Positions 1,736 through 39,304 of a stretch of DNA of 64,000 nt are shown here, in pieces; the stretch's first letter is position 1, and every line of letters begins with the position of its first letter. The translations under genes and the position numbers were made by a program. Source of the stretch: Fimbriimonas sp. (GTDB lineage: Bacteria; Armatimonadota; Fimbriimonadia; Fimbriimonadales; Fimbriimonadaceae); contig JARLGV010000004.1 in the NCBI GenBank assembly GCA_031292555.1, positions 1-64,000 on the forward strand, read 5' to 3'. The notes beneath the pieces were generated by a model. The model did not search any database. It saw only the letters and a program-made list of their open reading frames with translations, and was not told the origin of the DNA.

Positions 1736-3589
1736 TCACGTAAGGGTCAACTGAGCAGTCTTGGACGCGCCCCCAAAGGTCGCCTTGATGGTGGCACTTG
1801 TGGACCTGGTAACTGCCTTCGTCTTGATCGTGAGCGTCCCCGAACTCTTGCCCGATGAGATCGTAACCGTCGATGGGACGGTAGCCGACCCCGAATCGCT
1901 CGATATTGAAACCGCAATCCCTCCGCTTGGAGCTGGGCCCGTCAAGTTGATCGTCCCAACGCTCGACTTACCTCCCTTCACGGACGAAGGGCTTACCGAC
2001 AGTGACTTGATCGAGGGCGGTGCAATCGTCAGCGTTGCCGATTTCGAGGTCGTTCCTAGCTTGGCGGTTAGCGTCGCCACCGACTGAGTTGCCACCGCTA
2101 TCGTCTTGACGGTGAAGCCAACTGAACTCTTACCCGACGCGATCGTCACCGACACCGGTAGGGTTGCCGACTTCGAATTGCTCGTTAGGCTCACCTTCTC
2201 CCCTCCCGCCGGAGCCAGGCCACTTAACGTAACCAACCCGCTGGAAGTACTTCCACCTTGGACCGATCCGGGGCTAACGCCGATGGAAACGAGAGTTGGC
2301 GGAGGAGGAGGGTTGACCGTAAGGGTTGCCGTCTTCGTCACGGCACCGCACTTGGCTGTGATCGTTACGACCTGTTGCTTCGTCACCGATGAAGTGGTTA
2401 CCGCAAAAGTTGCCGATCCCTGATTCGCCGCCACCGAGACGGATCTGGGGACCTTGGCGGCAGAATTTGTGCTTGACAATGTCACGACAAGTCCCGAAGC
2501 AGAGGCGTTCCCGGTCAGGTCGACCGTTCCCAAGGAGGAGTTTCCGCCCGTGATTGCCGTAGGATTGACGCTGACCAAAGCCAGAGCGGCCGGAGTGATC
2601 GTGAGGGTCGCCATCTGCGAACTACCGTCCAGAGTGGCGGTGATCCTCACCCCCGTGTTCATGGTGACCCCGATGGTGGTTATTGAAAACGTGCCAGTGG
2701 ATTGCCCGGCCAGCAAGTTCACCGAAGCGGGAATTCTCGCTGCCTTACTACTCGAGGCGAGCGCAACCGTATCCCCGCCGGGTCCGGCCGTGCCATCCAA
2801 CCTCACGGTGCCCGTCGCGTTGGCTCCTCCTCCCACCGAAGCGGGGTTTAGGCTGACCGATGCGAGAGGCGCTTGCTGTACAGTGAGACTTGCCGACTTT
2901 GCTCCGCTTCCATTCCCGGCCGTGATCGCGACGACCGCCCGCGCATCGACGCTTGACGTGGCTACGGTGAACGTCGCCGAAGAGGTGCCGTTCGCAACTT
3001 CGACCGAAGCGGGAACTGTCGCAGCAGGATTGTCGGATGCCAGATGAATGCTAATGCCGCCTGACGAGGCAGGCTGCTTGAGCGTGACCGTTCCTACCGA
3101 GCTAGCTCCCCCGATAACGGACGTCGGGCTTACGCCGAAACTTCTGATCGGTAGTGGCGTAACGTTGAGTACGGTCGTTGCCACCTGCCCCGCCGCGCTT
3201 GCCGTCAGCACGACCGTCGTGTACGAGGCAACATCCTGAGCATGAATGGCGAAGGTCGCCGACGATGCTCCTGCCGGTACCGTAACCAATGCTGGCACGA
3301 TCGCAGACGCGTCGCTGCTCGTCAGCAATACCGTATTGCCGCCAACGGGGGCGGATTTTGACAAAGTCACGTTACCGATCGCGACCGCTCCGCCGAGCAC
3401 CGTGGTTGGATTCACGGTCAGGCCGCTTACCGGAACAGTACTGTAGAACGGGTTTGCGGCGACCTCGACAAGACCATTGCCCGTGCCAATGGCGATTTGC
3501 ATACCGCTGTGCGAAACGGCAACCGAGTTCACATCGGCTCCATACCAGTATCCGAGGAGAGTGCCGATTGCCAGATTCAGCGCCTGCAA
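1736..3589 (-). CDS. Ig-like repeat region downstream of an in-frame TGA (3' part of WD40-Ig protein)
   Basis: 617 residues from a TTG that is probably not a true start. It is in the same frame as the upstream WD40 ORF and separated from it by one TGA (3604-3602) and four codons. The first 45 residues contain one more WD40 strand (VNSVAVSHSGMQIAIGTGNG), the 14th of the series. Six Ig-like domains of about 85 residues follow, each starting near xVxPTSVxGG and ending in a KTATLTVNP-like strand. This is most simply the C-terminal half of a single protein of about 1220 residues that has lost continuity. If translated alone it would lack a secretion signal. The fold is assigned by repeat character only. 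Confidence 0.7.
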   Translation of the reverse strand: MQALNLAIGTLLGYWYGADVNSVAVSHSGMQIAIGTGNGLVEVAANPFYSTVPVSGLTVNPTTVLGGAVAIGNVTLSKSAPVGGNTVLLTSSDASAIVPALVTVPAGASSATFAIHAQDVASYTTVVLTASAAGQVATTVLNVTPLPIRSFGVSPTSVIGGASSVGTVTLKQPASSGGISIHLASDNPAATVPASVEVANGTSSATFTVATSSVDARAVVAITAGNGSGAKSASLTVQQAPLASVSLNPASVGGGANATGTVRLDGTAGPGGDTVALASSSKAARIPASVNLLAGQSTGTFSITTIGVTMNTGVRITATLDGSSQMATLTITPAALALVSVNPTAITGGNSSLGTVDLTGNASASGLVVTLSSTNSAAKVPRSVSVAANQGSATFAVTTSSVTKQQVVTITAKCGAVTKTATLTVNPPPPPTLVSIGVSPGSVQGGSTSSGLVTLSGLAPAGGEKVSLTSNSKSATLPVSVTIASGKSSVGFTVKTIAVATQSVATLTAKLGTTSKSATLTIAPPSIKSLSVSPSSVKGGKSSVGTINLTGPAPSGGIAVSISSDSGSATVPSTVTISSGKSSGTLTIKTKAVTRSTSATIKATFGGASKTAQLTLT

Positions 3590-3601
3590 ACCTATCTTAG
3601 C

Positions 3602-5407
3602 TCAGCCGGTTCCTGCGAACAACACTTTACCGTCGGTCGAAAAGGCCACTGATCGAACGCTAGCACATGGCGCCAAGGCAAAGGTGTTGAGAACTTTATG
3701 CGAGGCGACGTCCCAGAGTTCAACGACACCGCCCGACGAGGAGGCTCCGCACACCGCGAACGCCTTTCCGTCGGGCGAAAACGCGACGCATGCAACCTGC
3801 GATGCGGATGAACTAAGCGAGGCAATCAGCAGTTTGTCCGGAACGTCCCAAACCTGCAGCGTCCCGACTCCGCCGCTGATTACCGTCTTACTGTCAGGCG
3901 AAAACGCTACTGAGTTGATTCCAGCTCCGGTCGGCCTGGGCCACCATATTGGCTGACCGGACTCTGCGTCGGAGAACTCGACAACGCTACCCCAACTGCC
4001 TCCCCAACTAAAACCTCCGTCGACAATGTGTTTACCATCTGGAGATAGCGACACCGACTCCACACCGAAGTTGGCATTGCTACCGGGCCTAAGGAGCAAG
4101 TTACCGGTTGCTAGATCCCAAATCTCGACCAGCCCAACCAGGTACTGATTTGGAAACCAATATCCTCCGTCCGCGAGCGTCTTTCCATCAGCCGAATAGA
4201 CCACGCTTGCAATGTCTTGCGCGGGAGTGGCGATGCTGCTCGGGGCACCCCCCTTCTCCGCGTCGAAGAGCCTTACGATGCCTCCTCCGACAGCCAGTTG
4301 CCTATCGTCTGGGGAGAAGGCAACCGAATTTGCGCTAGCCCTGCTTTTTCCGACAAGGGAGGTCAGCAGCGTTCCCGCCTTGTAGTTCCATTGCTCAACG
4401 GCGCAAGCGACGGTATTCGCTGAGTTGCTGAACCCGGCATCGGCGAGCGTCTTGCCATCCGGGGCAAACGACACCGCATTCACGCTGTAGTTGTTGGCGG
4501 TGGCGGGGGACGAGAGGAGCTTGCCCGCCGTGGCATCCCACACTTCAAAGATCAGTTCGCCACCGACGGCCAAGGTTTTGCCGTCTACCGAAAAGGCGAC
4601 AGATAGCACTTCGTTGCCACCCGTGTCCAAGAGTGCGCTTCGAGTACCGGTAGCGACACTCTGAAGTTCGGCGATGCCGACCATTTGGGTGCTCCCGACC
4701 CCTACCCCGCCATCGGCCAGCATCTTCCCATCAGGCGAAAACGCAATCGAGAAAATCTCCGCCGGTGAAACCGACTGGAACGGCGTAAGCGCACAGGTAG
4801 CGACGTTCCACAGCTCAAGCAGTCCGCCCTGCTGCCGGTATCCCGCAACGGCGATCGTCGCACCGTCAGGAGACCATGCCAGGGACAAGATCCCAGCGTT
4901 GGCCAATCCAACCGCCTTGATCAACGTGAAGTTCGTGAGGTTCCAGATCTCGAAAGTCCCCAAGTACCCGCAACCGGCAACCGATTTGTCGTCCGGAGAG
5001 ACCGTCATCGACCAAATGCCGTTGGACAGGGCAGTATCGAGCGACGCGACGAGATTGCGCGACGAGATATCCCAGACCTCCAGTATGCCGTAGCTCGCGG
5101 TCACACCGGGATCACCGTTCACTCCCCCCGCCAAGAGCCGCTTTCCGTCATGGGTAAAGCGGACACACTTGATGCCTCCGGTGGCGGCAGTTGGGAAGCT
5201 CGCAAGTTCCCCCGAGGCAAGGCTCAGTATATGAACCCCACCGTCATCTCCTATGGCAAGCAGCTTGCCATCCGGCGAGTAGGCCAGGCTATTCCCGGGA
5301 GCAAATGTGCTGTACATCCACTGAACCGGCAGGAGACTCTGTGCCAAGGCTCCGACACAGGCACAGAGGAACATCAAGGTGAAACCGAACCTTAACACCG
5401 CTTTCAT
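3602..5407 (-). CDS. Secreted WD40 propeller protein, truncated by in-frame TGA
   Basis: 601 residues from the ATG at 5407, chosen because it gives a clean signal peptide (MKAVLRFGFTLMF..., likely cleaved ALA|QS) and has GAGGA about 8 nt upstream. The longer frame to 5440 adds 11 residues that spoil the signal. Thirteen WD40 strands of the VAFSPDGKTLADGG type are visible, and the 14th lies just past the stop, so the intact protein would have had 14, enough for two seven-bladed propellers. The TGA at 3604-3602 comes directly after strand 13 (VLFAGTG). As it stands the product would have an incomplete last blade and lack the Ig-like tail. Likely exported or surface scaffold. Confidence 0.8.
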   Translation of the reverse strand: MKAVLRFGFTLMFLCACVGALAQSLLPVQWMYSTFAPGNSLAYSPDGKLLAIGDDGGVHILSLASGELASFPTAATGGIKCVRFTHDGKRLLAGGVNGDPGVTASYGILEVWDISSRNLVASLDTALSNGIWSMTVSPDDKSVAGCGYLGTFEIWNLTNFTLIKAVGLANAGILSLAWSPDGATIAVAGYRQQGGLLELWNVATCALTPFQSVSPAEIFSIAFSPDGKMLADGGVGVGSTQMVGIAELQSVATGTRSALLDTGGNEVLSVAFSVDGKTLAVGGELIFEVWDATAGKLLSSPATANNYSVNAVSFAPDGKTLADAGFSNSANTVACAVEQWNYKAGTLLTSLVGKSRASANSVAFSPDDRQLAVGGGIVRLFDAEKGGAPSSIATPAQDIASVVYSADGKTLADGGYWFPNQYLVGLVEIWDLATGNLLLRPGSNANFGVESVSLSPDGKHIVDGGFSWGGSWGSVVEFSDAESGQPIWWPRPTGAGINSVAFSPDSKTVISGGVGTLQVWDVPDKLLIASLSSSASQVACVAFSPDGKAFAVCGASSSGGVVELWDVASHKVLNTFALAPCASVRSVAFSTDGKVLFAGTG

Positions 5408-5718
5408 CGCATATCCTCGCGTCCCGAGGGGCGCATTCAATCACGTTCGGGATGTGGCTCCCGGTTGACATCGAATGAACGGCGCGTTGCGATCACCCCC
5501 GAGGCGGTCCGCAAGATCGGATCGGCTAACGGCAGAGTTGACGCCCTCGTTGGAGGTTTGCACGAAGGTGACAACCACGGCCACTCTTCACCGACATCAT
5601 AGACGAGCCGCGCCGATCAGGGTCCCGTCATTTATGCGGAGTTTCGCCTTCCGGAGCGGCAAGCGACACGCGATTCGCCTGTTCGCTTGTCCCGTGAGTT
5701 CGCGCTATAGTAGGTTCG
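5408..5718. other. Intergenic region between divergent genes
   Basis: 311 bp between the start of the minus-strand WD40 gene and the plus-strand zinc-ribbon gene. It must hold both promoters. The plus-strand one is visible as a -10-like TATAGT at 5706-5711. The minus-strand gene has GAGGA before its start. No convincing additional coding sequence is seen; the open frames here look like chance. Confidence 0.6.
5706..5711 (+). promoter_or_regulatory. -10-like hexamer just before a start codon (possible leaderless mRNA)
   Basis: TATAGT ends 7 nt before the ATG at 5719. A weak TTCGCT lies 18 nt upstream (5682-5687). No Shine-Dalgarno fits between hexamer and start, so transcription would begin at or next to the ATG. 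Confidence 0.45.
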
Positions 5719-6327
5719 ATGATTCGGTGCCCGAGGTGTGGGGCGGACGCTCAGTGGGGCGCCAGCCAGTGCCCGCGATGCCAGGCGCCTTTTGTCGCCC
5801 CGCCTGGGCCGCCGGTGACGGCAAGGAGGAACAGCGGACGACCCATCTTCGTCGCCTCCTTGATCGGGTTACTTGCGATTGCCCTCATGCTTTGGCTTGG
5901 CCATCGTGGACTTTCCAGACCCAAAGAGGCGATTACCACCCTCGCAACCAGCCAAAGCCCATCGATGCCATCCTCTGGTTCGATGGCCGCTAGTGGAACC
6001 AGCGAGCCGCCGGCCGGCATCTTCCAGGTCACCGGCCAGGCGCAACAGGATCCCGTCGTGGCAATCAAGAACGACACCGTATCTCCCCTCCGCCTAATGC
6101 TGCAATGTGCCGATGGCTCGGTGCAAGCCGAATGGATCCAGGCCGGCACATCCAAGGATCTGACCATCCTGCAAGGCCGCTATCTGGCCTCCATCGATGC
6201 CCCCGACAACGAAAACATCATGCCAACCAACGGCACTATCGACGTAAAGAACTTCCACCATTACGAAGCCGACTTCATCGCCGTCCCCTACGCCGACACC
6301 GACTCATCGTTCTACATCGGCGACTGA
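5719..6327 (+). CDS. Zinc-ribbon, single-pass membrane protein
   Basis: 202 residues. An N-terminal C4 zinc ribbon (CPRC at 4-7 and CPRC at 18-21) lies in the cytoplasm. A basic stretch and one transmembrane helix (about 43-62, PIFVASLIGLLAIALMLWLG) follow, then a Ser/Pro-rich linker (about 72-103) and an extracytoplasmic domain of about 100 residues. I do not recognise that domain; its strand pattern (FQVTGQAQQDPVVAIKNDT) suggests a small beta fold. The ATG at 5719 puts the first cysteine at residue 4, normal for such ribbons. It is monocistronic by position. The start follows a -10-like box at only 7 nt. Confidence 0.75.
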   Translation: MIRCPRCGADAQWGASQCPRCQAPFVAPPGPPVTARRNSGRPIFVASLIGLLAIALMLWLGHRGLSRPKEAITTLATSQSPSMPSSGSMAASGTSEPPAGIFQVTGQAQQDPVVAIKNDTVSPLRLMLQCADGSVQAEWIQAGTSKDLTILQGRYLASIDAPDNENIMPTNGTIDVKNFHHYEADFIAVPYADTDSSFYIGD

Positions 6328-6361
6328 GTCCGCGAGGGGCGGGGGGCGGCAACCCAGACAG

Positions 6362-6394
6362 GGAGTGGTGGAGTACCGCAGTAGTGGAGTGGTG
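6362..6394. repeat. Short imperfect direct repeat, G-rich
   Basis: GGAGTGGTG occurs at 6362-6370 and again at 6386-6394, joined by a related GTAGTGGA segment. It resembles in style the purine-rich intergenic patches at about 20037-20100 and 20696-20752 and may be a member of a dispersed low-complexity class. It is non-coding as far as can be seen. Confidence 0.35.
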
Positions 6395-6603
6395 CAGGAT
6401 GTCTTCGTGGTCGAAACAAAATATTGCCCCCGACTTCGTGGCACTTACCCCTAACCTCATTTCTTCGGCGCTACCTTCTCGGCTACCCGGAGATGCGGGT
6501 AAGGGCAAGACCGATAGCGGTCACGCTTAACCAGAACCGGTTCGCTGCACTCTCGAGTCTTCGCATGAAAGTCGATCGAATCTAGCCTCGAGCGAATGCA
6601 GAA

Positions 6604-6620
6604 CGACTCCTTCGGAGTCG
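6604..6620. terminator. CUUCGG-loop hairpin downstream of the minus-strand Ig gene
   Basis: CGACTCC-TTC-GGAGTCG forms a perfect 7-bp stem closed on a UUCG-type loop. It lies about 100 bp past the minus-strand stop at 6719. There is no U-tract, so it may be a transcript-end stabiliser rather than a classical terminator. Confidence 0.35.
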
Positions 6621-6718
6621 AATCGGTACGCGGGGCTACGGCACGACCTGCCTCTCTCCAATTCAAGAGAAGCAGGCAGTGTCGCTTGCGCGCCGCGCGA
6701 AGGCTGGCGGCTGCCTGG

Positions 6719-9700
6719 TCAAGGATTCACCGTCAGGGTGACGGTGGACGACTTGCCCAGGCGGGTTGCGGTGATCGTCACCGTTTTGGTTGTGGTTACG
6801 GAGGACGTGTTAACCGTGAAGGTCTGGCGTCGCAGGTTGGTGCCGACCGTCACAGTAGCCGGAACGGTGGCGACGGTCGTGTCTGAACTGGTCAGCGATA
6901 CGACCGCTCCAGACGGACCTCCCCAACCATTTAGGGTTACGGTGCCACCGACAGAAGCTCCACCCGAGACCGAGCTCGAGGAAAGCGATACCGAATCCAC
7001 CCACGCAGCCCACAGCGTAAGCAGACAGGACTTGGTGGTCACCCCAAGCGTCGCCTGAAGCGTGATCGGTGTGGTTGTGTCCACTCCCATTGTCCCGACC
7101 AAGAACGAGGTGCTGGTCGCTCCGGCGGTAACCGTAACCGTGCGTGGACCCGAGAAGAAGCTCGACGGGGAGGATAGCGTGACCACAGCGCCACCGGACG
7201 GTGCCGGACCCGTTAGGGTAACCGTTCCTGTGGGAGAGTTGGCGCCGACAATCCCAGTCGGCGAAACGGTGTAAGACGCCAGTCCTCCCGGCGTGATCGT
7301 GAGTGTCGCGGTTGCCGTCGCTCCAAGGTAGGAGGCAGTAATCGTAACTGTCTGGGTAGTCGTAACAGTCGGAACCGAGATCGTAAATGGCCCGGCCGTT
7401 GCCGCTCCGGCAGGCACCGTGAAGGTCGATGGCACGGAGGCCAAGCTTGGATTGGAACTGCTAAGGCTGACCACAGCTCCTGACGGACCTGCCCAGCCGG
7501 TCAACTCCACATACCCGCCGCAGGCGTAGCCACCTATCACCGTCGATGGATCTGTCACAACTGACAGCAAGCCCGCCTGCAACACGGTCAGCGAGCACGA
7601 TTTCGAGAACGCCCCATAGGTCGCCGTGACGGTGACAGTCGAATTCGCATCGACTCCGTTGGTTGGTAATGAGAATGTGGCCGACGCCGCACCGGCCGCC
7701 ACGGTCACCGACTTTGAAGGAACTTGCGAGGAGTCACTTGACGTGATGCTCACCACCGCCCCGCCGGCTGGTGCAACTCCGGAAAGAGTCACCGTACCGG
7801 TCGTAGCGTTCCCGCCGATGATCGAGGTCGGCGAAACCGACAGACTCGCAACCGACACTGTCGGATTAACCGTCAGGGTCGTCGTCGATGACTTACCACG
7901 ACATGTCGCCGTAATCGTCACCGTCTCCGTCGTCGCGACCGCATTGGTCGTGATCGCGAAAGTCCCATGGACGGTAAGCCCGGCGACGGTGGCCGTCGCC
8001 GGAACCACCACGACGCTCGGATCGGAGCTCGACAGCGTGACGACAGTGCCCGAAGGCCCTGCTTGGCCATTCAGGTTGATCGTGCCGGTTACCGCCAAGC
8101 CGATGCCGCCAACGACAGATGTGGGTGATACCGTCACTGACGCAACCCATGCGGGATTCAGAGTCAGGGTACATGTCTTGGTGAAGACTCCCGATGTTGC
8201 GGTGAGTGTCAACGTCACGTTCGCATCGACTCCTTTGGTGGGCACCAAGAAAGTCGCCGATGTGGCGCCGGATGGAACCGTCACCGAGGTCGATGGAACC
8301 TGACTCGAGTTGCTCGAAGTGATGGCGACCACCGCGCCACCCGTTGGGGCCGGGTTGACGAGGGTAACCGTACCAGTCGGGTAGTCGCCGCCAACGATCG
8401 ATGTCGGCGAGACCGAAAGGCTCGCAAGGGCTGCGTTGGGATTCACGGTTATGGTCGCAGTGGATGACTGCCCTTGACACGTCGCCGTGATCGTCACCGT
8501 CTGCGTGGTAGCCACCGCAAGCGTCGCAACCGGGAAGGTCCCTTGGGTCATCGTCGCCGATACCGTCATCGAAGATGGCACCGTTACGGCGCTCGTGTTC
8601 GAACTCGACAGGGTCACGACAGAGCCCGAAGGTCCCGCTTGGCCATTCAGGTTAACCGTACCCGTCGCTGACGCCCCGCCAAGCACCGTCGACGGGGAAA
8701 CACTCAGGGACTGCACTCCCGCCGGAAGAACCGTCAATGTGCATGTCTTGGCTGCCGATCCGGTCGCCGTTAGGGTTACGGGCGTGCTGGCATCGACGCC
8801 TTTAGTGACCACCGCAAACGTCGCCGTAGTAGAACCGGCCGCAACCGTAACCGTTCCTGGCACTGTTGCACTCGAACTGCTTGAGCTCAATGAAACCACG
8901 GCTCCGCCGGTCGGCGCCGGTCCGGCAAGGGTTATCGTCCCGGTAGAGTTGTTGCCGCCAACCACCGACGAGGGCGAAACCGAAATGCTCGAAAGCGTCT
9001 GTGGGTTCACAGTAAGAACCGTAGTCGCCGATTTGCCACGTGCTGCCGCGGGCAAGGTCACGCTTTGGGGCGTGGAGACCGCAAAAGTTGTCACCGTGAA
9101 GGTGCCGTGAGCGGATGCCGCCGCAACCGTGACCGTCGTAGGAACCGTGGCGGCGTTCGTATTCGAACTCGTCAGCGTCACCACTACTCCGGAAGGGCCC
9201 GCCTTTCCGTTCAGGTCCACTGTACCAGTGACCGTTGTTGATGAACCCCCCAAAACCGATGTGGGTGAAACCTCGACAGACAGAACCGCCGCTGGAAGCA
9301 GCGTCAAGGTACAAGTCGCCGTACTTGAGCCAAGTCCTGCCGTAATCGTCACCGGAGTATTCGAGTCGACACCCTTTGTGGGCACCAAGAACGTGACCGT
9401 CGTCGCTCCCGACGGAACGGTAACCGTCGCTGGCGGAACCACCGATGCGTTGTTCGCGCTGAGGTTGACGACCGTACCGGAAGGCGGGGCCGGACCGCTT
9501 ATTGTAACGGTGCCATTGGGATAGTCTCCACCGACGATCGAGGTGGGAGATGTTGTTACGCTAACCACTGTCATAGGCGTAATCGTAAGGTTCGCAGTTT
9601 GCTGGGTACCCGCCGCGCTTGCCGTGATTGTAAGCGTCTCGGAACTCGACACCACGCTCGTCATAACCGTAAAGGTTGCACTCGTCGCACCCGAAGCGAT

Positions 9701-11299
9701 GACGACGGTCGCTGGGACCTGGGCGTGAGCTCCGCTTGACGACAGATTGATAGTCATACCACCCGTCCCGGCGGCAGAACTGATCGTCACCGTACCCGCA
9801 CTCGTATATCCTCCGACGAGGCTTGTCGGATTGAGACTCAGCCCACTCACCGATGGCGGGTTAACCGTCAAAGTGGCCGTTTTCGTAGTGCCGGAATAGG
9901 TTGCCGAAATCGTCACGGACTGGCTGGAACTCACGAAGGAGTGGGTCACGGCAAACGTGGCCGAAGTCTTCCCAGCTGGAACCGTCACATTGGCTGGCAC
10001 CGAGGCAGCCGACGGGTTCGAACTCGTCAGCGTCACGACCGCCCCCGAAGGACCTGCCTGGCCGCTGAGCGAGACCGTGCCCGTAACCGTTGTAGACGAT
10101 CCGCCGACTACCGTCGTCGGCGAAACGGAAACTCCACTGAGAACGGCCGGATTCACCGTCACGGTGGCCGTCTGCGAGCTAGAGCTCAGAGTCGCGGTAA
10201 CCGTGGCAACGACTTGCGAATCGACGCCCGCTGTCGTAAGGCTGAAAGTCGCGGAAGTCGAACCCGTGGTAAACGTCACGTTCGACGGACCGGTGATCGC
10301 TGCACTAGTTGACGAAATCGTGACCACGGTATTTGCGGCCGCCTTCGAACTCAGGGTTAGGGTTCCGGTGGAAGTTGCGCCTCCGACGACCGTAGTCGGA
10401 CTTAATGTGAACCCAGTAATCGTCGGCGCCTGGACCAAAACGGTGGTCGTGACTGTCGTGCCTCCCGAAGTGGCGCTGATCGTCACCGTCGTATCCGCTG
10501 CCACGGCCACGGTCGTAATGGCAAAGGTCGCGGAAGAATGACCGCTTTGTACGATGGCGGACGCCGGGACTTTCAACGCAGCGTTATTGCTCGAAAGCGT
10601 AACCGTATCGCCGTCGGAAGCAATCGAAGAAAGCGTTACGGTGCCGGTAGACGTACCGCCGCCAACAACCGTGCTCGGCGTGGCTGAGACGCTCGATACC
10701 ACAACATTCGAAGCTGGAGTGCCAAGAGCATAGAAAGCATGGGGAACGTCGTTTTCGTTAAAGTCGGTCCCCACATAGAGGACGCCATCGGCGCCGATCG
10801 CGGGCGTTTGGGCTCCGTTGAAGGTGGGCGATGTCCAGGTCGCTTGACCGTTGGGGGTGACCGCTTGGATCACTCCGTGGGATTGAGAGATCGTGTCACC
10901 GTAGGTATCTGCCCAGTAGATGGTGCCGTCCGACGCGATAGCAGGCGGCCCGTAGAAGCCATTGTAGTTGCCGACCGTCTTCCACTTGACCGATCCTTTC
11001 GTGTTCAGCGCATAGAGGCCGTTCGTGGTCGTCTGAGTAGGACGCTCGTAGTGTGTATAGCAAACATAGATCGTTCCATCCGAACCGACGGAAGGCGACG
11101 AATAGGTGGTGTCCCCATTGTTGAACGTCCAGACAAGCGTGCCGGAGGGAGTAAATTCCTCCACCTTGTTCGTCGATTGCGTCGGCGAGGACGCCACGAT
11201 ATTCCCGCCTGGAACAATGACTGGCGAAGACCAGGTGAAGGGCACGAAGCTGCTCGCTCCGTACTGCATCCTCCAATTCTGGACACCCGAAGAGGTCAC
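6719..11299 (-). CDS. Giant Ig-like repeat protein with PQQ-like propeller remnant at N-terminus
   Basis: 1526 residues. The first 200 or so are PQQ/quinoprotein-like propeller repeats (SDGTIYVCYTHYE, ASDGTIYWADTYGD, GADGVLYVGTDF). Fourteen Ig-like domains of about 85-95 residues follow, each with xxSPTSVVGG at the start, a GAVVxLSSSN strand, VPAGxTSATF and a terminal TLTVNP-like strand. From domain 5 onward two subtypes alternate (PAPxGG with a Cys in the last strand, and xAGPSG), giving a two-domain super-repeat. Its true N-terminus lies in the frameshifted fragment 11368-11958, so this ORF probably starts inside the original gene and lacks a signal peptide. An extracellular or surface stalk protein is likely; ligand unknown. 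Confidence 0.8.
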   Translation of the reverse strand: MTSSGVQNWRMQYGASSFVPFTWSSPVIVPGGNIVASSPTQSTNKVEEFTPSGTLVWTFNNGDTTYSSPSVGSDGTIYVCYTHYERPTQTTTNGLYALNTKGSVKWKTVGNYNGFYGPPAIASDGTIYWADTYGDTISQSHGVIQAVTPNGQATWTSPTFNGAQTPAIGADGVLYVGTDFNENDVPHAFYALGTPASNVVVSSVSATPSTVVGGGTSTGTVTLSSIASDGDTVTLSSNNAALKVPASAIVQSGHSSATFAITTVAVAADTTVTISATSGGTTVTTTVLVQAPTITGFTLSPTTVVGGATSTGTLTLSSKAAANTVVTISSTSAAITGPSNVTFTTGSTSATFSLTTAGVDSQVVATVTATLSSSSQTATVTVNPAVLSGVSVSPTTVVGGSSTTVTGTVSLSGQAGPSGAVVTLTSSNPSAASVPANVTVPAGKTSATFAVTHSFVSSSQSVTISATYSGTTKTATLTVNPPSVSGLSLNPTSLVGGYTSAGTVTISSAAGTGGMTINLSSSGAHAQVPATVVIASGATSATFTVMTSVVSSSETLTITASAAGTQQTANLTITPMTVVSVTTSPTSIVGGDYPNGTVTISGPAPPSGTVVNLSANNASVVPPATVTVPSGATTVTFLVPTKGVDSNTPVTITAGLGSSTATCTLTLLPAAVLSVEVSPTSVLGGSSTTVTGTVDLNGKAGPSGVVVTLTSSNTNAATVPTTVTVAAASAHGTFTVTTFAVSTPQSVTLPAAARGKSATTVLTVNPQTLSSISVSPSSVVGGNNSTGTITLAGPAPTGGAVVSLSSSSSSATVPGTVTVAAGSTTATFAVVTKGVDASTPVTLTATGSAAKTCTLTVLPAGVQSLSVSPSTVLGGASATGTVNLNGQAGPSGSVVTLSSSNTSAVTVPSSMTVSATMTQGTFPVATLAVATTQTVTITATCQGQSSTATITVNPNAALASLSVSPTSIVGGDYPTGTVTLVNPAPTGGAVVAITSSNSSQVPSTSVTVPSGATSATFLVPTKGVDANVTLTLTATSGVFTKTCTLTLNPAWVASVTVSPTSVVGGIGLAVTGTINLNGQAGPSGTVVTLSSSDPSVVVVPATATVAGLTVHGTFAITTNAVATTETVTITATCRGKSSTTTLTVNPTVSVASLSVSPTSIIGGNATTGTVTLSGVAPAGGAVVSITSSDSSQVPSKSVTVAAGAASATFSLPTNGVDANSTVTVTATYGAFSKSCSLTVLQAGLLSVVTDPSTVIGGYACGGYVELTGWAGPSGAVVSLSSSNPSLASVPSTFTVPAGAATAGPFTISVPTVTTTQTVTITASYLGATATATLTITPGGLASYTVSPTGIVGANSPTGTVTLTGPAPSGGAVVTLSSPSSFFSGPRTVTVTAGATSTSFLVGTMGVDTTTPITLQATLGVTTKSCLLTLWAAWVDSVSLSSSSVSGGASVGGTVTLNGWGGPSGAVVSLTSSDTTVATVPATVTVGTNLRRQTFTVNTSSVTTTKTVTITATRLGKSSTVTLTVNP

Positions 11300-31041: not shown

Positions 31042-33699
31042 ATGATTTTTCGATGCATCCTTTTTGCAACGGCGCTTGTCTGCACGGCCTCGGTTTTTGG
31101 CCGGGTTGGATCATCGAGCAGGCTATATGCACCTACGCTTACGAGCGTCGCCATCGCTCCCATCTCGATATATGGCGGGGATTCGTCCACCAGTGCGACC
31201 GTGACTCTATCGGCAAGTGCTCCTGCCGGGGGACTCGCCGTCAGTCTGTTTTCCAGTAATGCGAGCCTGGCAGTTCCGCCTTTGGTGACGGTGCCAGCCG
31301 GCTCGAGTACGGCAAGTTTCACCGCGTCAACGTCGGCGGTGACTACCCCAACAAGTGTGACCGTCACCGCGGTATTGGGAGCTACGGCAAGAACTTGTTC
31401 GGTCAGTGTCGTTCCTGCCGTGCTTGCGTCGGTCGACATCACTCCCAAGACGTTCGTCGGGGGCTCGGCTACCGTCGTGAATGGAAAGGTAGACCTGAAG
31501 GGCGTGGCGCCTTCGGGCGGACTGACGGTGACGCTTGCCACGTCCAATGCGTCGGCCATTACTGTGCCTGGTTCAGTGACGATCGCAGCCGGGAGTAGTT
31601 CGGGATCGTTCTCGGCCAGCAGCGTGCAGAATCCGGTCGAATACAAGCCTACGATCACAGCAACTCTGCAAGGCGCATCGAAGTTGGTTTCCGTGACCGT
31701 GAATCCGGTGCAAACTACTTCCCTGTCACTGAACCCAACGTCCATTCCGGGTGGCTCGCCGTCGATCGGAACCGTGACCGTATCCGATCCCGCTGGACCG
31801 AACGGCATCCGGGTCAAACTTGCCAGCAACAGCGCCCATGCGACCGTTCCTGCCTATGCGACTGTCGCACCAGGTTCGACGTCCAGCACGTTCAAAATCT
31901 CTACGGTCGGCATCGCAAAAGCGGAGACTGTCGTCATCACGGCAAGTAACGGTGCAAGCACCCAAACGGCATCCCTGGCGATGACTTCCACGACGATCGC
32001 ATCGGTTTCGGTGCAACCCACGAACGTATCGGGTGGAAGCGATTGTGTGGGAACCGTATTGCTGACTGGATCTGCGCCAGCAGGAGGAATTGTGGTGAGT
32101 CTTCTCTCCGGCAACGCCTCCGCAACAGTTCCCGCGACCATTACAATCCCATCTGGGAGTTCATCGGGCCAGTTTGCGGTCACTACCTCGCCGGTATCGG
32201 CAGTGACTCCTCTCACTCTTTTGGCGACCGATCAGATCACGACGCGTACCTGCATCCTCACCGTGCGCCTCGCCCAACTTAGCAGTTTGGCGGTGACCCC
32301 GAGCCCGGTTGTTGGCGGTTCGGCTACTCCCGTAGCGGGAGTCGTTAACCTCGATGGCCCCGCTCCGACAGGTGGGGCAACAGTTACTCTCGCATCGTCG
32401 AACCAGGCAGCCGTTACCACTCCGCAAAGCGTGACGGTGCCGGCAGGTTCAAAAAGCGTCCAGTTCGCCGTAACTACGGTCCAGAACTCAACGCCGTATG
32501 GACCAACCATCTCGGCAACGTTCGGCGGGATCACGAAGTCGGCGTCGCTGTCCGTTATTCCGGAGCAAGTGACCGGGCTGAGCCTCGATCCAGCATCCAT
32601 CACAAGCGGAAAAATGACGAGCGGCACCGTTTCGATTTCCCAGACCGCTGGTCCATCTGGAATCAAAGTGCATCTCACGGCTTCGGGAACGGACGTGGTG
32701 ACGCCGCTGGAGGCCGTCGTACAATCAGGGGCCACAAGCGCCACATTCAACATCGGGACGGTTCCGGTCAAGCTGTCTGAGACACTCAACGTGACGGCGG
32801 CGAATGGCGCAAGCACGAAGAGTGCGGCATTGACTCTTGTGCCGGCGAAGCTTAGCGGTATCACAGCTACGCCTGCATCTCTGGTAGGCGGCAACCCATC
32901 CTCGATTACCCTAACTCTAGATGGCCCGGCGCCCGCCGGGGGGCTGTCTGTCAGTTTGTTCGCAGACAATCAGGCAGTCTCGGCTCCAGCCACGGTTACG
33001 GTTCCCGCTGGCAAGACTTTCGTGACATTCGCGGTTGACACCTCCGGTGTTTCAGCAAGCACGGCCGTCAAGCTGTCCGCAACCGCAAGTTCTGTCACAA
33101 CCTCGACAGTGATGACGATCAAGCCTGCGTCGCTGGCGAGCCTAAAGCTGTCGATCCGATTGGTGGTCGGTGGTTCGTCCACGCCCGTGACCGGCACGAT
33201 CCTACTCAACGGCCAGGCCCCGACAGGTGGCGTGGTGCTGAACCTGGCGAGTTCGAATCCGTACGCGGCGACCGTGCCCGCCACCGTCACGGTGCCGGCG
33301 GGGCAACGTCAGATCGAATTTCCCATCACGACCTTGCAGACGCCGGTTGTGTATAACATGGCCGTGTCTGCGAATCTCGGAGGTGCGTCGCAATCGGTTA
33401 CATTGGTGGTCGATCCTGAAACGCTTGTCAGCACAAGCCTCAGCCCCAATTCGGTCAACACGGCAGGCACGTCCAGCGGCACAGTGACAATTTCCCAAAC
33501 GGCTGGTCCAAAGGGCATCCTCGTGAATCTCCAAAGCGACAAGTATTCGGAGGTACCGAGTTCGGTATTGATCCCCAGTGGCTCCACAAGCGCCACCTTC
33601 GCGGTGAGAGCGAAAGCGGTCACCAAGACAGTTATTTCGACGATCACGGTTACCGTCGGGGTGCAGGTTAAGACGGCACAGTTGACGATAAAGCGGTAG
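31042..33699 (+). CDS. Secreted protein of nine Ig-like domains in a three-fold super-repeat
   Basis: 885 residues: a signal peptide (MIFRCILFATALVCTASVFG) followed only by nine Ig-like domains of about 95 residues. The domains fall into three subtypes in strict order A-B-C, A-B-C, A-B-C. A has an APAGG turn with SLFSxNA. B has APTGG and an insertion like TTVQNSTPYGPTISA. C has xxAGPxGI with a KxE/KTV pattern. Each triplet is about 284 residues, so the protein grew by duplication of three domains at a time. No catalytic or anchoring domain is seen. It is followed by two secreted S53 peptidases on the same strand. An extracellular fibre or matrix role is inferred. Confidence 0.8.
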   Translation: MIFRCILFATALVCTASVFGRVGSSSRLYAPTLTSVAIAPISIYGGDSSTSATVTLSASAPAGGLAVSLFSSNASLAVPPLVTVPAGSSTASFTASTSAVTTPTSVTVTAVLGATARTCSVSVVPAVLASVDITPKTFVGGSATVVNGKVDLKGVAPSGGLTVTLATSNASAITVPGSVTIAAGSSSGSFSASSVQNPVEYKPTITATLQGASKLVSVTVNPVQTTSLSLNPTSIPGGSPSIGTVTVSDPAGPNGIRVKLASNSAHATVPAYATVAPGSTSSTFKISTVGIAKAETVVITASNGASTQTASLAMTSTTIASVSVQPTNVSGGSDCVGTVLLTGSAPAGGIVVSLLSGNASATVPATITIPSGSSSGQFAVTTSPVSAVTPLTLLATDQITTRTCILTVRLAQLSSLAVTPSPVVGGSATPVAGVVNLDGPAPTGGATVTLASSNQAAVTTPQSVTVPAGSKSVQFAVTTVQNSTPYGPTISATFGGITKSASLSVIPEQVTGLSLDPASITSGKMTSGTVSISQTAGPSGIKVHLTASGTDVVTPLEAVVQSGATSATFNIGTVPVKLSETLNVTAANGASTKSAALTLVPAKLSGITATPASLVGGNPSSITLTLDGPAPAGGLSVSLFADNQAVSAPATVTVPAGKTFVTFAVDTSGVSASTAVKLSATASSVTTSTVMTIKPASLASLKLSIRLVVGGSSTPVTGTILLNGQAPTGGVVLNLASSNPYAATVPATVTVPAGQRQIEFPITTLQTPVVYNMAVSANLGGASQSVTLVVDPETLVSTSLSPNSVNTAGTSSGTVTISQTAGPKGILVNLQSDKYSEVPSSVLIPSGSTSATFAVRAKAVTKTVISTITVTVGVQVKTAQLTIKR

Positions 33700-33874: not shown

Positions 33875-36800
33875 ATGAAAAGCCGCATTCTAAATGGAGT
33901 AGCGCTCCTCTGCGCCCTCTCAGCCCTTTCGATGGGCCAGAACTCGCCTCCCAAGCTCGTGCAGATGCAGAAGGAATTGCCAAAGGCAATGCTCAGTGCA
34001 ATCTCGATCGGTGCGAAGCCCGCGAGCGACAAACTTAGCCTGTCAATCAGCCTCAACCTCAGCGACCCGGCCGGACTTCAATCCTACGCCGATTCGGTTT
34101 CTGATCCATACAGTCCCAATTACCGCCGATTCATTTCGCCGGAGGAAGTCGGACGTCGCTTTGGCCCATCGATGGCCCAAGTGCAGGCTGTCACTACTTT
34201 TCTTAAGTCATCGGGAATGAAGATCCGGCTTGTGGGTAAGAATCGCATGTCCATCTTGGCCGAGACGACGGTTGCCAAGGCTCAGGCAGCTTTTCATACG
34301 AGCATCGAACAATTCCGGCCGGCTACGGCTCCGATGACTCCAGCAACCATCCGATTCTCTTTTACAACGCCACCGTCCATCCCGGCGGGGATCGCCGATT
34401 ATGTTCAGAATATAGCCGGCCTTGAGGACTTTTCCCGCCCCCAGCGGCGAGTCTATTTGACTCCGACACAGTTACGAACGGCGTACGGCCTCTCCACGAT
34501 TTACAGTGGCGGGTCACAGGGTCAGGGGCGCACCGTCGGCATCTCGAACTACGACGGTTTCAAAGTGTCGAACGTGGCGACTGAAATCACCCAGTTCACG
34601 CTACCCAGCCCTTCGGCCGGCGCCACGACGAATATCAAGGTAGAGACGGTCAGCGGTGGATCCGGCTCCGGACAAGAATCGGGGGAAGGCGACTTGGACA
34701 TCCAAACCGTCATCGGAATGGCCCCACTGAGCAATGTGATCATTTACGACGGAGGCAGTAACGACATCATCGGCGTTCTGACGCTGGAAGCGTCCGACAA
34801 CACGGCGGACATCATCACCGAGAGCTACGGTTGGACACTTGACGCGTCGACTGCGATCGCCGCTCACAATTTGCATGTTGCAATGAGCTCACAAGGCATC
34901 ACCTATATGGCGGCCTCCGGCGATTCGGGAACGGATCTTCAAGGATACGATTACCCGAACAAGGATCCCGAAGTGCTGAGTGTCGGCGGGACGTCGTTGG
35001 TACTGAACTCCAACAACACTCGTCAGACTGAGGTCGGTTGGAACTCTAATGGAGGCGCAGGCGGCGGTGGATGGGCCGTCACGACCGACGCCTTCAACAA
35101 GAGACCGTCCTACCAAGTAGGCACCGGCATTCCTCCTGCCAGTTCGATCCCCTATCGGCTGTTTCCGGACGTTTCGATGGACGCCGACCCGGGAACTGGA
35201 TATTACGTTTACATGGAAGGCAACTGGTACGGCATCGGTGGTACAAGCGGCGCCTGTCCGACTTTTGCCGGCGGTTTGGCGGATTGTGAACAACAGTTGA
35301 TCAAAGCGGGCGCCATTGCCGTTGATAGCACGGGGCACTACCGACTCGGACGAATTCAAGATTTGCTCTATTCCTACAACGGAGACGCCTCAGTCTTCTA
35401 CGATGTTAAGTCCGGAACGAACGGAGTTCTCCCGAATGGCTCCAACTCGGTGGCGACCGTAGGATGGGACACCGACTCAGGTTGGGGACCAATCAGTTGG
35501 GCCGGATTCGTGTCGAAGTTCTCGTACACCGCCGGCTTTAAGTCGCTCACCCTCGGCGCCACGGCGATCGAAGGCGGCGGCTCGACGACCGGGACCGTCA
35601 CCCTTTCCTCCGCTGCTCCAACGGGGGGCCAGGTCGTAAGCCTGACCAGTTCGGATTCCTCGACAACCGTTCCTGCGACCATCACGGTTGCAGCCGGATC
35701 GACGACTGGCACATTCAAGGTCTCCACTGCAAGTGTTTCGGCTACCACTGCGGTGACGATCACTGCATCGATCGGATCCGCCACGGCAACCGCTACCCTC
35801 ACGGTGAACACTCACTACGTTTCTGCGGTTGCCATAAGCCCATCCTCGGCCGTGGGTGGCACGCCCTCGGCCATCACCGGCACCGTCACAATCGACAAAT
35901 CCGCCCCGGCAAACGGGCTTGCGGTGACGCTGCAGTCCAGCAACAGCGGATTGGCGTCGGTTCCGACTTCGGTGACCGTGCCATCAGGAAGCACATCGGC
36001 GACGTTTACCGTGACCACTGCCGGCGTATCCTCCACCACTGCGGTCCAGATCTCGGCCACTGCGGGAGGACAGTCGAAGTCTGGGACTTTGACACTGAGT
36101 CCAGCAGCATTGTCAACTGTCACACTCAACGCAACTAGCGTCGACGGTGGAGCGAACGTTACGGGCACCGTGACGCTCAACGGGCTTGCGGCCGGCTCAG
36201 GAGCATCCGTCAGCCTCAAATCGTCGATCGCTAGCGCGGCCTCGATAACGCCGTCTACGCTCGTCATTGGAGCCGGCCATTCGTCGGGAACCTTTACTGT
36301 CAAGACCCAAGCAGTCTCGGCGGCCAAGACCGTGACGATCACTGCAAAGCTCGGCTCAGTTTCGAAGACAGCCACCCTCAAGATCGTTCCACTTACGGCA
36401 ACCACCCTCTCGATCAGTAAGTCCTCTGCACTTGGCGGCGTCGACAACCCAACGGTCACAGTCACCCTGAACGGCGTTGCTGGCAGCGCTGGAGCGTCCG
36501 TCACGCTCTCGACGACGCCTTCGTCTGCGGCCAAGTTCGCTTCCACCACCCTAAAGATCGCGGCTGGCGAGCAAAGTGCAAGCACTACTTTGAAGACGCT
36601 CGGTGTCTCCGCCAATACGGTCGTAACGGTGAAGGCGACCCTCAACGGCTCGCAATCCGCAAAGATCACGGTTACGCCTGCTATTTTGACGAGCCTGACC
36701 CTAAACCCCACCTCAATCAAAGGGGGGACGGGGAATGTAACTGGAACGGTCACGCTAAACGGGCCAGCCGGACCGGGAGCTCGATCGGTCTCACTAAAGA

Positions 36801-36970
36801 ACTCGTCGACAGCAGCGGGAACGATGCCTGGCTCCGTGTCGATTGGCGCCGGCAAGACTTCGGCTACGTTCACCTTCAAGTCGAAGGTGGTCAAGGCCAC
36901 GACTAGCGCGACGATCACTGCAACCCTCAGTGGGCAAAGTCAAACGGCGACGCTGACCGTCACCCACTGA
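33875..36970 (+). CDS. Secreted S53 (sedolisin/kumamolisin-like) peptidase with five Ig-like domains
   Basis: 1031 residues. A signal peptide (likely SMG|QN) is followed by a pro-kumamolisin activation domain (about 25-170, containing YRRFISPEEVGRRFGP) and the S53 catalytic domain (about 190-550). Catalytic residues are present: Glu and Asp in EGDLDIQ, the oxyanion Asp in AASGDSGTD, and the nucleophile Ser in GIGGTSGACPTF. The calcium-site region DTDSGWGPISW closes the domain. Five Ig-like repeats of about 95 residues follow. S53 enzymes are acid-active serine-carboxyl peptidases that self-process. The Ig-like repeats probably project or attach the enzyme. A hairpin follows the stop. Confidence 0.9.
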   Translation: MKSRILNGVALLCALSALSMGQNSPPKLVQMQKELPKAMLSAISIGAKPASDKLSLSISLNLSDPAGLQSYADSVSDPYSPNYRRFISPEEVGRRFGPSMAQVQAVTTFLKSSGMKIRLVGKNRMSILAETTVAKAQAAFHTSIEQFRPATAPMTPATIRFSFTTPPSIPAGIADYVQNIAGLEDFSRPQRRVYLTPTQLRTAYGLSTIYSGGSQGQGRTVGISNYDGFKVSNVATEITQFTLPSPSAGATTNIKVETVSGGSGSGQESGEGDLDIQTVIGMAPLSNVIIYDGGSNDIIGVLTLEASDNTADIITESYGWTLDASTAIAAHNLHVAMSSQGITYMAASGDSGTDLQGYDYPNKDPEVLSVGGTSLVLNSNNTRQTEVGWNSNGGAGGGGWAVTTDAFNKRPSYQVGTGIPPASSIPYRLFPDVSMDADPGTGYYVYMEGNWYGIGGTSGACPTFAGGLADCEQQLIKAGAIAVDSTGHYRLGRIQDLLYSYNGDASVFYDVKSGTNGVLPNGSNSVATVGWDTDSGWGPISWAGFVSKFSYTAGFKSLTLGATAIEGGGSTTGTVTLSSAAPTGGQVVSLTSSDSSTTVPATITVAAGSTTGTFKVSTASVSATTAVTITASIGSATATATLTVNTHYVSAVAISPSSAVGGTPSAITGTVTIDKSAPANGLAVTLQSSNSGLASVPTSVTVPSGSTSATFTVTTAGVSSTTAVQISATAGGQSKSGTLTLSPAALSTVTLNATSVDGGANVTGTVTLNGLAAGSGASVSLKSSIASAASITPSTLVIGAGHSSGTFTVKTQAVSAAKTVTITAKLGSVSKTATLKIVPLTATTLSISKSSALGGVDNPTVTVTLNGVAGSAGASVTLSTTPSSAAKFASTTLKIAAGEQSASTTLKTLGVSANTVVTVKATLNGSQSAKITVTPAILTSLTLNPTSIKGGTGNVTGTVTLNGPAGPGARSVSLKNSSTAAGTMPGSVSIGAGKTSATFTFKSKVVKATTSATITATLSGQSQTATLTVTH

Positions 36971-37147: not shown

Positions 37148-39304
37148 ATGGCGCCGTTGTCTTTGCGCGTGGACGATGAGATCCTCATGACCATGTTGCC
37201 GCTAATCGGGTGCCTACCCTTCTTCGCCGTATCCGCACTGCCTTCTGGACAAAACGCTTTGCAGAGGTTCGTCACGCTGCAGAAGACGCCTCCGCCCGGT
37301 ATGTTCCGAGCGATCGCGCAGCGCGCAAAACCACTTAACGATCAACTTCATTTAGCGATCAGCCTCAAGCCCGGCGACTCGCAGGGGCTTCAATCGTTCG
37401 CCGACGCAGTATCAGATCCGAAAAGAGCAACTTACCGGGAGTTCATCTCCCCGACAGAGGTCGGATCTCGCTTCGGACTCCCGGCGCCCACGCTGGATCG
37501 GGTGACCACGTTCCTCCGAAGTCAGGGTCTTCAAGTAACTTTGGTGGGCAAGAACCGCCTGACGATCTTGGCCGACGCTACCGTATCTCAGGCTGAGCGC
37601 GCATTTCATGTGACGATCGAGGAGTTCCTAAGTCCTTCGTCGAACGGAAGACCGGCAAGAACCAACTTCTCGTATACAACGTCGCCGATGATTCCTGCGA
37701 GCATTGGTTCAGTCGTTCAGAACATATCGGGATTGGAGAACTTCACGGCCCCTGTCCGCCGCAACCTGACGCCCACTCAGTTGAAAACTCTCTATAGCGT
37801 CGCCCCTCTAAACGGGGGAGCCGATCTGGGCCAAGGACGCACGATCGGTATCACGAGCTTCGACGGATTCTCAATCAACGATGAGAAGACGTTCGTCAAG
37901 TCGTTCGGACTTCCCTCCCCTTCGGCAGGCGCAGGAACTAACATTAAGGTCGTGACGATCAGCGGAGGGTCCCAGACGACAACTCCAACCGGCGAAGCCG
38001 ACCTGGACATTCAGGCGTCGATCGGAATCGTACCCCTTAGCAATCTCATCGTTTACGATGGCGGAAACAACGACATCGTCTCCGTCAACACGCGTGAAGC
38101 CAACGACAACTTGGCGGATATCATCACCGAGAGTTACGGTTGGGAACTAGATTCCGCCACTGCTTTGAGCCTGCACAATCTGCACCTCTCGATGACCGCG
38201 CAAGGCATCACTTACATCGTGGCCGCAGGAGATACCGGAACCGACTTACAGGGATTTCAGTATCCCGACACAGACCCGGAGGTTCTCTCCGTGGGCGGCA
38301 CTTCGGTCACTACCGATTCGTCCGGCAACCGGGTCCTGGAAACGGGCTGGAACAACAACCAGGGCGCAGGAGGAGGCGGGTGGGTCCCCAGCAGCGACAC
38401 CTTCAACATCCACCCTTCCTGGCAGACCGGCACTGGCGTCCCAAGCAGCGGGGAGGTTCCCTACCGGCTCTTCCCCGATGTGTCGTGCGACGCCGATCCA
38501 AGCACCGGCTACTTCATCTACATGACGGTGAAAGGCAAGCAGAACGAATATGAAATCGGTGGAACTAGCGGCGCTTCACCAACCTGCACCGGGTCACTTG
38601 CGGCGGCGGAACAGGAACTCATCCGGCTGGGCGCGTTGGTTGCCGACAAGAGCGGACACTATAGATTGGGCCGAATTCAGGATCGTCTCTACTCGTTCAA
38701 TGGCGATCCCGCCGTCTTCTACGATGTCACGATTGGCTCAAACGGTCCACTTCCAAACGGATCGACTTCAAATGCCGGAATCGGATGGGACACGGACTCG
38801 GGTTGGGGCCCCATCAGATGGACGGGATTCGTCGCCAAGCTCGCCGGCAGTCGCACTGCCACACTATCTGGAACCGTCTCGTTCGGCGATTACCTGGGAA
38901 CGACGCCACCATCGGTGACCCTCAAATTTCGGTATGCCGGCGAGAGTACTCCTTTTATGACAGCCACCGCGGCACTCGACGCTCACGGCAACTACTCGAT
39001 CCCCAATGCCCCTGCTCAGGCCTACTTGGTCTCTCTACAATACGGAACTTGGCTTCGCGACACTCTGAGCGTCGACCTTTCGAAAGGTGGCGTGCCGAAT
39101 GCCGACTTTTCCCTTATCAATGGGGACGTCAATGGCGACAATCGTGTGAGCATTGCCGACTATCGCCTTATCGTGGCTGCATACGGCTCGACTTCGAGCG
39201 ATCTAAACTGGAACCCTCGCGCCGATCTTAACGGCGACGGCGTCGTGGACGCCAAAGACGTTGCCATCTACTATCGTAACTACGGTCGTATCGGTAGCCA
39301 ATAA
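37148..39304 (+). CDS. Secreted S53 peptidase with C-terminal dockerin-like module
   Basis: 718 residues from the ATG at 37148; the ATG at 37187 may be the true start, since it gives a cleaner signal (MTMLPLIGCLPFFAVSALPSG|Q). It is paralogous to the preceding peptidase: pro-domain (YREFISPTEVGSRFGLP), EADLDIQ (Glu/Asp pair), AAGDTGTD, EIGGTSGASPTCTGS (nucleophile Ser) and DTDSGWGPIRW. In place of the Ig repeats it has a prealbumin/carboxypeptidase-regulatory-like beta domain (about 575-660) and two F-hand calcium loops, DVNGDNRVSIADYRLIVAAY and DLNGDGVVDAKDVAIYYRNY, the type I dockerin pattern. No cohesin is seen in the window. A terminator follows. Confidence 0.9.
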   Translation: MAPLSLRVDDEILMTMLPLIGCLPFFAVSALPSGQNALQRFVTLQKTPPPGMFRAIAQRAKPLNDQLHLAISLKPGDSQGLQSFADAVSDPKRATYREFISPTEVGSRFGLPAPTLDRVTTFLRSQGLQVTLVGKNRLTILADATVSQAERAFHVTIEEFLSPSSNGRPARTNFSYTTSPMIPASIGSVVQNISGLENFTAPVRRNLTPTQLKTLYSVAPLNGGADLGQGRTIGITSFDGFSINDEKTFVKSFGLPSPSAGAGTNIKVVTISGGSQTTTPTGEADLDIQASIGIVPLSNLIVYDGGNNDIVSVNTREANDNLADIITESYGWELDSATALSLHNLHLSMTAQGITYIVAAGDTGTDLQGFQYPDTDPEVLSVGGTSVTTDSSGNRVLETGWNNNQGAGGGGWVPSSDTFNIHPSWQTGTGVPSSGEVPYRLFPDVSCDADPSTGYFIYMTVKGKQNEYEIGGTSGASPTCTGSLAAAEQELIRLGALVADKSGHYRLGRIQDRLYSFNGDPAVFYDVTIGSNGPLPNGSTSNAGIGWDTDSGWGPIRWTGFVAKLAGSRTATLSGTVSFGDYLGTTPPSVTLKFRYAGESTPFMTATAALDAHGNYSIPNAPAQAYLVSLQYGTWLRDTLSVDLSKGGVPNADFSLINGDVNGDNRVSIADYRLIVAAYGSTSSDLNWNPRADLNGDGVVDAKDVAIYYRNYGRIGSQ

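Follow-up and report, generated by a model that had tools for sequence, protein, structure and literature searches.

The open reading frame (ORF) at 31042-33699 of the window, by which we mean the whole 64,000-nucleotide stretch of DNA that was analysed, encodes a chain of Ig-like domains with little else attached. It raises the question of which unit was repeated in this gene, how long ago, and what has kept the repeats in order. The original prediction read the protein as three copies of a three-domain unit (A-B-C), attributed these to recent duplication of a large block, and took the three domains to be a functional unit, as for a fibre of regular spacing.

A putative secreted protein made of nine Ig-like domains

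The ORF is on the forward strand, starts with ATG and encodes 885 amino acids, with nine Ig-like domains of 92 to 97 residues each. The domain profile was refined with the help of 660 domains found in 79 ORFs of the organism's own genome and of four congeners. Outside the array we found only a putative signal peptide and a short spacer, and the C-terminal tail is about 1 residue long. The features are as follows.

31042..31101, + strand: putative signal peptide, about residues 1 to 20 (MIFRCILFATALVCTASVFG, judged by eye), then a short spacer to domain 1
31135..31419, + strand: Ig domain 1, type A (from the profile, with typing by classifier)
31420..31704, + strand: Ig domain 2, type B, long form (two extra residues after GG, one in the C-D loop)
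31705..31986, + strand: Ig domain 3, type C, AGP in the B-C loop
31987..32271, + strand: Ig domain 4, type A, in the AlphaFold2 triplet
32272..32562, + strand: Ig domain 5, type B, in the AlphaFold2 triplet
32563..32844, + strand: Ig domain 6, type C, in the AlphaFold2 triplet
32845..33132, + strand: Ig domain 7, type A, the most divergent A copy
33133..33420, + strand: Ig domain 8, type B
33421..33696, + strand: Ig domain 9, assigned to type C from its position and its B-C loop, though the typing is weak (near-tie of A and C)

The protein stops after domain 9, and no anchor follows. The combination of a separate adhesive domain and a surface anchor, which marks fibrillar adhesins, was absent from the nine-domain protein, in which no such family was found. 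A promoter consensus scan gave nothing above chance.

The nine domains are arranged as three A-B-C triplets

When the protein was compared with itself, identity peaked at offsets of 285 residues (40.5%) and 570 residues (31.4%), close to the 284 and 568 that had been predicted, while the best other offset reached 19.2%. The DNA gave 45.7% identity at 855 bp and 43.2% at 1710 bp. Pairwise identities were highest inside the classes 1/4/7, 2/5/8 and 3/6/9: pairs of the same type shared 45, 38 and 37% (A), 53, 43 and 48% (B) and 45, 37 and 37% (C), versus 20 to 45% for pairs of different types. The mean was 0.43 for domains in phase and 0.32 out of phase, a difference equalled in 1 of 500 permutations of domain order. 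The self-comparison and the pairwise classes thus bear out the (A-B-C)x3 layout of 31042-33699.

Similarity between domains therefore peaks three domains apart, as expected from expansion by a multi-domain unit. That domain repeats can grow in steps of several domains is already established, and duplications that take in several domains together are frequent (Bjorklund et al. 2006, PMC1553488). The pattern seen here resembles those cases and differs from them in that the unit is common to paralogous arrays, is gained or lost between orthologues, and has saturated silent sites.

The types were also recovered by a classifier, a scoring matrix trained exclusively on other proteins (L025, L065 and L066, described below). 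The first eight domains came out as A B C A B C A B and the ninth as a near-tie between A and C, and 10 of 20,000 permutations reached the A-B-C register; domains 7 and 9 were weakly typed. Type B is a long form that gains two residues behind the first GG and, as a rule, another behind strand C, and the long domains of this protein are exactly domains 2, 5 and 8. In the B-C loop, type C has AGP where types A and B have APx. The three subtypes proposed at the outset are thus real, but some of their markers need correction: the TxQN/QTP feature of type B is a substitution in the E-F stretch and not an insertion, and domain 2, for which APTGG had been given, actually reads APSGG. In domain 3 the motif reads DPAGPNGI.

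The duplication is old

To date the copies we used codons whose first two bases agree, summed over the nine in-phase domain pairs. The third base was equal in 86 of 280 four-fold-degenerate sites (about 31%), versus 28% expected from base composition. Silent sites of the array are therefore saturated, and the copies are old. Because amino acid identity of 38 to 53% and the type markers persist at this level of silent divergence, long purifying selection is implied.

These values rule out a recent duplication, since the four-fold sites are at chance level. A recent origin is also contradicted by a second protein, in which the A-B-C order occurs as well and in which all 15 domains of one species have one-to-one counterparts in another. 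The other part of the proposal, duplication of a large block, is supported: the unit is 285 residues long, and two species differ by exactly one triplet in a related orthologous group.

Where recent block duplications are present they can be recognised, because they are still alike in DNA: in L054, an array elsewhere in the organism's own genome and in contrast to the nine-domain array, domains 13 and 17 are 89% identical in DNA and agree at 53 of 70 four-fold sites. L054 (positions 2651-8530, minus strand) is itself a 20-domain, Ig-only secreted protein built of four-domain units, and its block duplication also includes domains 12 and 16 (81% DNA identity). Two Ig-only arrays in other genomes, L080 and L082, have N termini similar to that of L054.

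The A-B-C order is shared with the tails of propeller proteins

The A-B-C order recurs in register in the tail of the propeller protein L025, the second-best place in the organism's own genome, where 15 domains were typed.CABCABCABCAB.B. L025 has orthologues in two different related genomes, L066 and L065, and the N-terminal regions of the three are 42 to 64% identical to each other and have no close match elsewhere in the set. L025 and L066 have 15 domains each, which match domain by domain at 55 to 80%. L065 has 12, exactly one triplet fewer, and the position of its missing triplet differs according to whether it is aligned with L025 or with L066. Gain or loss of a whole unit was thus seen in the L025/L065 group; for the nine-domain gene no orthologue was found in 19 congeneric genomes.

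Identity of the nine-domain protein to L025, L066 and L065 was 0.41, 0.40 and 0.40 in phase versus about 0.36 otherwise, and the register was equalled by 1, 1 and 13 of 2,000 permutations, respectively. The in-phase excess persisted when B domains were left out (0.41 versus 0.36 for L025). In an IQ-TREE tree of the domains of these four proteins, the B domains all fell together (support 55), and so did the C domains (support 73), both with moderate support. The three B domains of the nine-domain protein grouped together (support 95), its A domains 1 and 4 joined domain 6 of L025 and L066 (support 77), and its C and A domains formed no groups exclusive to the protein. The simplest reading would be that the three-domain module predates the separation of the four proteins and was amplified or kept separately in each.

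Among 19 other genomes of the genus we found no full-length Ig-only relative; the tail of L065 came closest there, at 42% over 814 residues. Scans of genome contigs and viral contigs with the nine-domain protein gave no relative, and a contig scan with L025 gave one relative contig (L117, from an uncultured Armatimonadetes bacterium).

Neighbouring genes and other arrays in the window

Two peptidase genes lie downstream.

33875..36970, + strand: next gene, for an S53 peptidase of the kumamolisin type that carries five Ig domains of this family
37148..39304, + strand: second gene for an S53 peptidase, with a dockerin type I domain at the C terminus

We rejected a conserved neighbourhood: orthologues of the upstream sugar epimerase/dehydratase occur elsewhere with no Ig array in the fetched flanks, and one relative's array that adjoins an S53 gene is part of a larger protein.

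Two further arrays lie on the minus strand of the window. At 1736-5440, an ORF for a WD40-type propeller (3602-5440) and an ORF for six Ig domains (1739-3601) are in the same frame with one in-frame stop between them; this is likely one propeller-Ig protein broken by a nonsense codon or a sequencing error. At 6719-11299, 14 Ig domains of this family form an array that also includes a short piece of PQQ-like propeller; the typing of the domains (..BC.B.b.B....) suggests a shift from three-domain to two-domain units along the array.

An Ig-like family that is widespread in the genome and the phylum

At least 55 ORFs of the organism's own genome (6.46 Mb) encode this Ig-like type, which Pfam does not classify, with 405 domains between them; a first search had given 170 matches. 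In a sample of the phylum, 38 of 151 genomes strongly matched the triplet profile, and among the matches listed the organism's own genome had the most first-look candidates (228). Most arrays are joined to beta-propellers or S53 peptidases. Other arrays in the genome have super-repeat units of two or four domains, and many have no clear super-repeat, so a super-repeat is not required for the domain to work.

The nine-domain protein did not reach the gathering threshold of Pfam Big_1 (PF02369); the neighbouring gene scored 16.8 against a cut-off of 34.9, and 1 of 90 triplets had a weak hit. No other Pfam-A model reached threshold for the protein, and NCBIfam gave none. A new model for this family, represented here by 660 domains, seems warranted.

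Adjacent B domains were seen twice versus 12.2 expected, and spacings of 2 and 3 were enriched. A long B domain stood last in 20 arrays versus 9.5 expected (arrays L025-L084), and this C-terminal long domain could serve some particular function, for instance capping or sorting.

Structure prediction and co-variation at the domain junctions

We modelled the A-B-C triplet of domains 4 to 6 with AlphaFold2, using 90 aligned triplets from the window and from relatives. The model consisted of three well-folded Ig sandwiches (pLDDT 97.7, pTM 0.86). A model of all nine domains had a pLDDT of 91.2 and a pTM of 0.47; in these predictions the single domains are confident and the overall shape of the array is not, because of the low full-length pTM. 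The regularly spaced fibre that had been proposed is thus no more than a conjecture.

At the level of the fold, the predicted strands and the alignments with FdeC, intimin and invasin identify a tandem of Ig-type beta sandwiches. The closest solved tandems, which include these three, aligned with Z from 11.9 to 10.6 and large rmsd, which probably reflects differing inter-domain angles. FdeC was the best VIA-align match of the triplet model (Z 11.9 over 265 aligned residues, rmsd 12.0); intimin came next, and invasin ranked lower. Like these arrays of Big_1-like fold, the nine-domain protein has Ig sandwiches in direct tandem; unlike them, it lacks a Pfam Big_1 match, an outer-membrane barrel and a C-terminal receptor-binding domain, and it has a typed three-domain super-repeat. 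The top Foldseek matches, to ciliary and complement proteins, were set aside as general Ig-array likeness with large rmsd, and a sequence search of the PDB with the profile gave only weak and implausible matches.

The types are separated by 20 of 92 columns (p <= 0.01), and these lie mostly between the strands: 14 of the 39 loop and linker columns versus 6 of the 53 strand columns (Fisher p = 0.009). In the standard Ig topology, the C-terminal pole carries the A-B, C-D and E-F loops, and the N-terminal pole carries the B-C, D-E and F-G loops. We assigned loops to the lower and upper poles from this topology, not from coordinates. Mutual information was then computed for neighbouring domains in arrays that do not belong to the super-repeat group (347 non-redundant pairs) and compared with within-protein shuffles. 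The value for the lower pole of one domain with the upper pole of the next was reached by none of 300 shuffles, and the same was found for the E-F loop of one domain with the B-C loop of the next. Co-variation in the reverse direction was weaker (13 and 30 of 300 shuffles), and strands with strands gave no signal (114 of 300). The signal belongs to blocks, as no single pair of columns passed the family-wise threshold. Neighbours that are inherited together can co-vary without contact, but the absence of a strand-strand signal argues against this as the whole cause.

A functional unit of three domains, as had been proposed, thus receives indirect support from sequence: the residues that define the types are in loops and linkers, and the poles of neighbouring domains co-vary. 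A comparable design is known from the titin A-band super-repeats, in which FnIII domains come in types A, B and C and the linkers are specific to their position (PMC10665226). The likeness lies in position-specific types and linkers, to which the diagnostic loop and linker columns correspond. Titin is an unrelated protein of another domain family, with larger units tied to thick-filament spacing, and by this analogy the resemblance is one of design and not of kinship.

Discussion

The account that we favour, and think reasonably probable, is that the gene encodes a secreted spacer rod of nine Ig domains, in which type-specific junctions preserve the order of the domains and growth took place by duplication of whole units. 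The array would be an extracellular spacer or rod, and each of the A-B, B-C and C-A junctions would consist of two fitted surfaces that determine at what angle, and how stiffly, neighbouring domains are joined. Growth or loss by whole A-B-C units would leave every junction intact, and for this reason A-B-C would be what is duplicated and retained. Selection on junctions would keep the types distinct while silent sites drift to saturation. The array may share its descent from one three-domain module with the L025/L065/L066 propeller tails, and it now stands alone. Its probable use is as an extracellular spacer, a matrix or a surface strand.

The main rival is neutral inheritance of an old block, in which three already different domains were duplicated early and the event was repeated twice, with no selection on junctions or order. 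We regard this as rather unlikely. Domain repeats do often expand by several domains at a time (PMC1553488), the two- and four-domain units of the same family mean that three is not special, and the later four-domain duplication in L054 is still visible in the DNA (89% for domains 13 and 17). However, type-specific residues have persisted despite saturated silent sites and are concentrated in loops and linkers, neighbours co-vary directionally in arrays without super-repeats, and adjacent B domains are nearly absent.

The types could instead be ligand-binding specialisations, with, for example, each third domain binding a partner or a surface polysaccharide in a regular rhythm, much like the periodic binding of thick-filament proteins that is proposed for titin super-repeats. 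The position of the type markers in loops would fit this, as would the neighbouring genes for secreted S53 peptidases, one of them with Ig domains of the same family. We nevertheless give it little credence: the loops concerned lie at the poles of the domains and would be covered by neighbours in a tight tandem with short linkers, and no ligand-binding family was recognised in the protein. Concerted evolution, in which gene conversion homogenised the units within the gene so that the clustering of its B domains (support 95) reflects exchange and not age, is very improbable, because four-fold sites at chance identity exclude recent exchange and the C and A domains form no groups exclusive to the protein; an ancient episode of exchange is conceivable.

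If order is indeed kept by type-specific junctions, a more general rule can be put forward tentatively, as a conjecture that we hold to be possible and no better than that. The lower-pole loops of a domain, chiefly E-F, would have to match the B-C loop of the next, which would restrict arrays to a few types that are compatible with each other (A-B-C, B-x and four-domain units), and with this code a lineage of Armatimonadota would have built at least 55 array ORFs in one genome.

As the biology of a single gene, the nine-domain protein is ordinary in kind, an old internal duplication. It is also a clear bacterial case of a typed Ig super-repeat, with paralogues and orthologues, in a family that current Pfam misses. 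If junction matching sets the order of domains, these arrays would be a natural data set on which neighbouring domains fit together, and this would help both to explain how stiff surface strands are and to construct protein rods from modules.
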